Positions 4,096-44,225 of a stretch of 64,000 nucleotides of DNA are shown in pieces; the stretch's first letter is position 1, and each line of letters opens with the position of its first letter. The position numbers and the translations under genes were made by a program. The DNA is from Halichondria panicea (taxonomy: Eukaryota; Porifera; Demospongiae; Suberitida; Halichondriidae): positions 825,001-889,000 of the forward strand of contig NC_087391.1 in NCBI RefSeq assembly GCF_963675165.1, written 5' to 3'. Under the pieces are notes generated by a model, which had not been told where the DNA came from, searched no databases, and saw only the letters and a program-made list of their open reading frames with translations.

Positions 4096-4356
4096 CTACA
4101 GATGTGTGTCCGCTATGGATATACGTCTCAGTTCTAAGTGCTCTGCCCCCTTGGGTCGATTGGAGGCGACCTTTGACCCGTCTTTGTCGGACTGATAGGT
4201 CTGCGTCTTGAGTATGAACATGAGGTCGTCCAGATGAGAGTCACCTTGGCTCTCCGACACACTGGCTTGGCTTCCCATGTCGTCATTGTAACGGTTCATG
4301 CCGACGCCCAGCACTGGGGTCATATCGGAATCCTTGTCGAAGTCTGCCCACTCATC
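4096..4356 (-). other. ADGRV1: ADGRV1 last exon: cytoplasmic tail with PDZ-binding C-terminus
   Basis: The acceptor CAG|GATGAG at 4358-4357 opens an 87-codon last exon in phase 0. It is polar and acidic, rich in Asp, Ser and Gln, and ends Ile-Ala-Asp-Thr-His-Leu-stop. A final Thr-His-Leu is a class I PDZ ligand (S/T-x-hydrophobic). With the preceding exon the cytoplasmic part after the last membrane span is about 130 residues, of similar scale to vertebrate ADGRV1. Confidence 0.8.

Positions 4357-44225: not shown

Follow-up and report, generated by a model that had tools for sequence, protein, structure and literature searches.

A complete ADGRV1 (VLGR1) ortholog in the demosponge Halichondria panicea and its possible role as a whirlin-anchored collar link

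The window considered here (G000:C15:825001-889000), a stretch of 64,000 nucleotides from the 131.5 Mb, 39-contig genome of the sponge Halichondria panicea, carries a complete gene that is supported by sequence comparison as an ortholog of ADGRV1 (VLGR1/GPR98) with conserved domain order. Unit-to-unit homology with human ADGRV1 extends along its Calx-beta array, three further domains being inserted at the same places, and its cytoplasmic tail ends in two motifs that are nearly the human ones. The His and Ser residues of the autoproteolytic site are missing, and genes for whirlin/harmonin-type scaffolds are present in the same genome. We consider it likely that this demosponge ADGRV1 is a whirlin-anchored link between microvilli of the choanocyte collar, probably not autocleaved and acting mainly as a tether.

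The possession of ADGRV1 by sponges is already published. According to the excerpted text of PMC4942974 (2016), Ephydatia muelleri has VLGR1, usherin, and two whirlin homologs, all 5- to 8-fold lower after choanocyte depletion, and no whirlin ortholog was found in E. fluviatilis. The E. muelleri protein, choanocyte-enriched along with usherin and the two whirlin homologs, can be likened by description to the present one as a sponge VLGR1 ortholog. ADGRV has also been described in choanoflagellates and filastereans, and the full-length ADGRV homologs reported among the choanoflagellate class theta adhesion GPCRs (aGPCRs) can be likened to it by description as well (PMC12716839, excerpts). VLGR1 is not named among the Amphimedon receptors in the excerpted text of PMC4302439. 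The use of the present work is to provide a complete sponge ADGRV1 gene with exact comparisons. In the open-access literature, as far as its excerpted text goes, no earlier account was found of the equal number and placement of units in sponge and human ADGRV1, of the two-part ADGRV1 tail in sponges, of the missing GPS cleavage residues of demosponges, or of a PAN domain in vertebrate ADGRV1.

Gene structure and relationship to ADGRV1

The gene model comes from a dynamic-programming gene finder, for which the window and then the program's own output served as training data, followed by manual curation. Four predicted exons within the 7-kb intron were removed, one EAR exon end was altered, and first-pass exons were combined, below position 6300, with the second-pass exon 5726-5604. 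The curated gene agrees exactly with the minus-strand layout of 57 exons, from a start at 44225 to a stop at 4096, that had been proposed in the earlier note. Its 18,180 nt encode a single long frame, as also proposed, the length of 6,059 residues being about 16 off the approximate 6,075 given there. All 56 introns are of the GT-AG type (52 to 7,036 nt), no internal stop is found, and the GC content is 51.9% in exons vs 39.8% in introns. The main features are gathered in Table 1.

Table 1. Positions in the window of the ADGRV1 gene and of its main features
Feature	Positions	Strand	Basis
ADGRV1 ortholog, 57 exons, 6,059 aa	4096..44225	-	gene model; collinear with Amphimedon P0001 and human
Start codon and signal-peptide-like N-terminus MLPLREWKLSLLWLAVLLGTAVGQ, two exons	44042..44225	-	Amphimedon N-terminus aligns
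Array of 39 Calx-beta units, aa 38-5387	7595..44002	-	own profile HMM; Pfam Calx-beta on single exons
Laminin G in Calx-beta unit 11, aa ~1285-1445	36590..37186	-	Pfam PF13385, E 7e-21; same unit in human
PAN/apple in Calx-beta unit 18, aa ~2361-2423	31153..31341	-	Pfam PF00024, E 4.3e-6; likewise in Amphimedon, snail, urchin, vertebrates
EAR/EPTP in Calx-beta unit 24, aa ~3206-3524	25821..27161	-	Pfam PF03736, E 4.8e-11; same unit in human
Longest intron, 7,036 nt	14802..21837	-	spanned without a break by Amphimedon P0001
GPS Cys box DCIHW...FC...CAC, cleavage-site His and Ser absent, two exons	6052..6402	-	alignment of nine ADGRV1
Seven-transmembrane (7TM) domain, aa 5675-5928, five exons	4614..6012	-	PDB 9fte_A, E 6.6e-35; trees
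Tail motif HLDDLMFILKT, possible whirlin N-domain-binding helix	4204..4236	-	near-conserved in coral, snail, urchin, vertebrates; role suggested by PMC10039067 (excerpts)
C-terminal LRRISIADTHL, predicted class I PDZ-binding motif DTHL	4099..4131	-	motif as in PMC10039067 (excerpts)

The longest intron is unusually long and contains an open reading frame on the opposite strand (16907-17893), as might be expected if two or more neighbouring genes had been fused by the model, for example at this point. Such a fusion appears very improbable, since the collinearity of the Amphimedon protein across the intron supports a single gene; human ADGRV1 crosses the same junction, with no gap listed there. 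Separate transcripts are likewise made improbable, as far as sequence can tell, by the one-piece Amphimedon protein, which spans the whole length. The opposite-strand frame itself (328 codons, plus strand) encodes a PVDPPKPVDPP-type repeat, with no Pfam family above cut-off. An in-frame alternative splice acceptor lies at 6058 (6058-6181, minus strand), the use of which would drop 41 residues of the GPS Cys box. Outside the gene, a weak Vps54_N match, below the Pfam cut-off, is seen upstream on the opposite strand (45864-46358, plus), a CSPCNRNHAL-like tandem repeat is open in several frames of both strands (50691-51419), and a protein-phosphatase gene (53249-54253, minus) is a neighbour of ADGRV1.

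The nearest database protein is Amphimedon queenslandica P0001 (5,861 aa), the only one of 2,185 scored candidates to reach E<=0.001. Its UniRef label, "Staphylococcus aureus surface protein A," is a misnomer for an ADGRV1 ortholog. It shows 38-40% identity with the window protein (39.9% pairwise) and is collinear over nearly the full length, the listed gaps of at least 12 columns all falling in the EAR block, at two loops, and in the tail. A second search, with a lengthened query, returned 402 proteins at E<=0.001, the best 120 of the 402 being vertebrate ADGRV1. A third search, with 18 matches listed at E<=10, adds urchin (5.8e-9), coral (6.5e-5), and a snail protein, not significant at E 0.12, which is named ADGRV1 at its source and is 34% identical to human ADGRV1 over 4,911 aligned residues. 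Between human and window proteins, 1,799 of 5,895 aligned residues are identical (30.5% in a nine-row alignment; 30.8% in an earlier one), and no sponge insertion of at least 20 residues relative to human is present in the earlier alignment. Extra stretches of 86 aa (Ser/Thr-rich) and 22 aa are found near 5137-5290 in human ADGRV1, and N-glycosylation sequons outside the membrane part number 102 in human vs 35 in the sponge.

The C-terminal 701 residues, in which seven hydrophobic stretches can be recognized by eye over the 7TM region, match the ADGRV1 structure 9fte_A with 123.9 bits, the next PDB entry being ADGRG6 with 28.9 bits. The Pfam 7tm_2 model gives no match at E<=1 on the sponge 7TM region, so a survey based on this model could miss the gene. 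A 7TM tree of 17 rows was computed with ADGRV1 sequences, the PDB sequences of ADGRG2/4/6, and five further aGPCRs encoded in the Halichondria genome. Both demosponges cluster with the coral, snail, urchin, and vertebrate ADGRV1 at 100/99, the window protein and Amphimedon P0001 being paired at 100/100. Forcing both sponges together with the same-genome aGPCRs is rejected (p-AU 0.0048), and likewise with ADGRG2/4/6 (0.0061), for groups named after the tree had been seen. Long branches are flagged by the program; on removal of the ADGRG rows, the ADGRV1 split persists at 100/100. The sponge receptor thus groups with ADGRV1, apart from the few other aGPCRs included, and its initial recognition as an ADGRV1/VLGR1-type receptor with conserved domain order is borne out by alignment, tree, and PDB match alike.

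The Calx-beta array and its inserted domains

A home-made Calx-beta profile was built with 29 human, sponge, and urchin units as seeds. With a loose threshold, it finds 42 hits in the sponge protein and the same number in the human one; at an i-Evalue of 0.01, the hits number 39 and 38, respectively. LamG, PAN, and EAR interrupt units 11, 18, and 24, respectively, at nearly the same point of the profile, which leads to 39 units in each protein. The long array announced in the earlier note is therefore present, its 36-38 units becoming 39 with our own profile at the loose threshold. Human ADGRV1 (P0035, 6,312 aa) and the sponge protein are alike in these 39 units, in the units that host the three insertions, and in the 7TM domain. 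With the same profile, 39 units and splits at 11, 18, and 24 are also found in urchin, fish, and axolotl ADGRV1; other counts are obtained for bird (40), coral (38), Amphimedon (38), and snail (31), which may stem from limits of detection, absent insertions, and the shortness of the snail model.

Detailed insight into the correspondence between units comes from the sponge-human unit scores, whose centred mean is 59.6 on the diagonal, with none of the 38 other cyclic shifts exceeding 4.1. By raw score, the diagonal comes first in 19 of the 39 unit rows, and after centring in 24; the best human place is the collinear one for 34 of 55 sponge tiles, vs about 1.6 expected from an arithmetic estimate. 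Only 14 of the 39 sponge units are nearer to their human counterpart than to the best other sponge unit. A contrasting array at C2:272-278 kb has Calx-beta units about 405 bp apart, with 96-100% DNA identity over 345 nt among the eight compared, which points to recent copying. Gain and loss of units is frequent in tandem repeats; the ADGRV1 array has the same 39 units and the same insertions in sponge and human.

LamG, as earlier claimed, is matched by Pfam in the same unit as in human, and the order LamG, EAR, and 7TM is that of vertebrate ADGRV1, both LamG and EAR lying inside the Calx-beta array according to Pfam and alignment. The EAR/EPTP block is likewise recovered, with two stretches that pass Pfam out of the seven repeats attributed to it. 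A PAN domain is present in addition to the features listed in the earlier note. Beside the window value (Table 1), PAN_1 E-values on segments are 3.1e-10 in Amphimedon, 8.7e-8 in snail, 1.9e-4 in urchin, 8.9e-6 in fish, 1.5e-4 in axolotl, 2.2e-4 in bird, and 3.4e-4 in human, the human score of 20.8 bits being just below the Pfam cut-off of 21.4. The AlphaFold model of the sponge PAN exon has a mean pLDDT of 53.1, with residues 51-80 at 81-84; of the 181 matches with E<=10 that a Foldseek search of the PDB returned for it, none reached E<=0.001. In excerpted open-access full text, "ADGRV1" together with "PAN domain" was found only in a Plasmodium mimicry paper.

The Amphimedon model, which shares collinearity, LamG, and PAN with the window protein, differs by the lack of the EAR block, its host Calx-beta unit being continuous, and the coral model lacks PAN. 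These cases indicate that insertions can be lost with the array unbroken, unless the two absences are gene-model faults.

An independent joining of a sponge Calx-beta giant to another adhesion GPCR has to be weighed in a genome where Calx-beta exons are common (151 matches, those of ADGRV1 included). The identity of the three insertions and of the three units that bear them, the grouping of the 7TM domain with ADGRV1, and the matching tails leave such a convergence close to negligible.

Cleavage residues, cytoplasmic tail, and scaffold genes

A GPS-like region had been claimed ahead of the 7TM domain. Its Cys box aligns in nine ADGRV1 sequences; no match to Pfam GPS/GAIN is obtained at E<=1 on the sponge region. 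At the cleavage site, the window protein reads CACRQFGDL and the Amphimedon one CQCQLVGDY, both without His and Ser, so that RQFG and QLVG stand in place of the autoproteolytic H-(L/M)-(S/T). C-x-C-x-H-(L/M)-S is kept in all seven non-sponge sequences of the nine-row alignment, human having H-M-S. A wider count covers 129 non-sponge relatives in a set of 130 database proteins: 93 have H-(L/M)-S, 34 mammalian ones have Y-M-S, one lizard protein has Q-M-S, and one is unmatched, the Ser being found in 128 of the 129 and the His in 93. The rule that all eumetazoans keep the His-Ser pair, true of the seven aligned sequences, was thus abandoned, and loss of the GPS His is not special to sponges. The 34 mammalian ADGRV1 clusters with Tyr for His (CACSYMS), such as P0015 from whale, P0017 from horse, and P0025 from camel, keep the Ser. 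The wider count makes the tether reading slightly less probable.

Nearly all choanoflagellate aGPCRs retain the GPS and tethered agonist according to excerpts of PMC12716839, which suggests that the cleavage residues were lost in demosponges. With these residues gone in both demosponges, the sponge receptor is probably uncleaved, rather than split into two fragments. Missing cleavage residues do not exclude signalling.

The short tail expected after the 7TM domain was found, and it ends in two conserved motifs. The pair reads DDLMFILKT...LRRISIADTHL in the window, DNLMFALKT...LRRISIADTHL in Amphimedon, DDLIFALKT...LRRISIADTHL in coral, DDLIFALKT...MRRINIADTHL in urchin, DELIYALKT...KRIDIADTHV in snail, and DDLIFALKT...LRRIPIADTHL in human, the sponge motifs being near-identical to human DDLIFALKT and RRIPIADTHL. 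An IADTHL or IADTHV terminus with the first motif within the last 160 residues is observed in 129 of the 130 database proteins, mostly vertebrate, the exception being a rodent model with neither. In the excerpted text of PMC10039067, DTHL is described as a type I PDZ motif shared by ADGRV1 and USH2A; ahead of it, some 20 residues form a helical stretch that fits the whirlin N-terminal domain. The affinity of the ADGRV1 tail for whirlin NPDZ12 is given there as ~1.4 uM, and ~9.5 uM without DTHL; according to the same text, ADGRV1 does not critically depend on the canonical PDZ/DTHL contact, and no binding of PDZD7 to the tail was detectable. We infer that DDLxFxLKT would be this published whirlin-binding helical motif.

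Two whirlin/harmonin-type scaffold genes could be located in the genome, at C10:933-940 kb and C2:226-230 kb, some of their domains being assigned by eye. The C10 gene is whirlin-like, with N-domain, PDZ1, and PDZ2 found by search and HHD2 and PDZ3 by eye; its best PDB match is KIAA1526, which we take to be whirlin. The C2 gene has a harmonin N-domain (Pfam 1.5e-6) and harmonin as its best PDB match, the Pfam harmonin N-domain model matching this gene only and not the C10 one. The C10 N-domain, joined by one GT-AG intron, gives a gap-free alignment with the human whirlin N-domain. The whirlin cleft positions named in excerpts of PMC10039067 (V39, L42, L46, L50, F58, and L62) correspond to L, L, I, L, F, and L in the sponge, all hydrophobic, five of them lying inside the gap-free alignment and V39 adjoining it by ungapped extension.

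An usherin-type N-terminal head at C15:5007762-5010196 points to a candidate usherin gene, of which the head alone was seen; this head is not among the FN3 matches listed. A human usherin tail query gave no match in the genome, and the DTHL-stop pattern (81+71 vs 70+65 for the control) is hardly above control. A Laminin_N gene on C16 was rejected as usherin on account of the giant frames that follow its head and resemble cadherin repeats by eye. In this region (G000:C16:464001-514000), the usherin-like Laminin_N head precedes stop-free frames of 6,027 and 6,172 codons and, further on, a tyrosine-phosphatase-like frame, a layout that presumably resembles that of lefftyrin.

Proposed role of the sponge receptor

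The localisation, binding, lack of cleavage, and function that we infer for sponge ADGRV1 can be combined as follows. The 39 Calx-beta units, with LamG, PAN, and EAR built into units 11, 18, and 24, would form an extracellular rod of great length, carried by a GPS-type stalk and the 7TM domain and followed by the short tail with its two motifs. This rod would bridge adjacent microvilli of the choanocyte collar (or the collar and the flagellum), like ADGRV1 at the ankle links of stereocilia. A whirlin-type scaffold would hold the tail, with DDLMFILKT lying in the N-terminal domain cleft of whirlin and DTHL assisting in PDZ1. The receptor would not be split into two fragments and would act mainly as a tether.

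Other roles of the same ortholog deserve consideration. It could be mainly a signalling GPCR in the sponge, as a receptor that stays uncleaved may still respond to a tethered or an external ligand, and the 7TM domain has indeed been retained, in conserved form in both demosponges. The GPS His is missing from many mammalian relatives as well, and decides nothing by itself; the loss of both His and Ser in both demosponges argues against a mainly signalling role, which looks rather improbable. Loss of the TM6 tryptophan, considered as a sign of lost signalling, was discarded: this residue is absent in the sponge, but likewise in fish and snail. The main site could also be the ciliary base or the flagellum rather than the microvillar collar. 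The title of one cited paper assigns ADGRV1 to the primary-cilium base, and the choanocyte expression reported in PMC4942974 is silent, in its excerpted text, on the place within the cell; such a site is on the unlikely side, with a weight that should be kept in mind. A whirlin-anchored collar link acting mainly as a tether is the reading that we prefer.

A broader evolutionary scenario is put forward more tentatively, with doubt somewhat outweighing confidence. The 39-unit rod, its three insertions, and the two-part whirlin-binding tail may have been fixed before the sponge split, the sponge and human lines keeping unit number and order, and demosponges may then have lost self-cleavage, leading to a mechanical, whirlin-anchored collar link. 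The absence of His and Ser in demosponges and that of His in many mammals provide natural cases to separate tethering from cleavage, and the PAN domain in human ADGRV1 could aid the reading of variants in that region. Sponge and human differ little in the docking motifs that matter for Usher syndrome type 2, so that ankle-link anchoring becomes testable in an animal that has neither neurons nor hair cells. If the scenario is true, the tether and its cytoplasmic code would be the ancient core of ADGRV1, and receptor cleavage would be dispensable.
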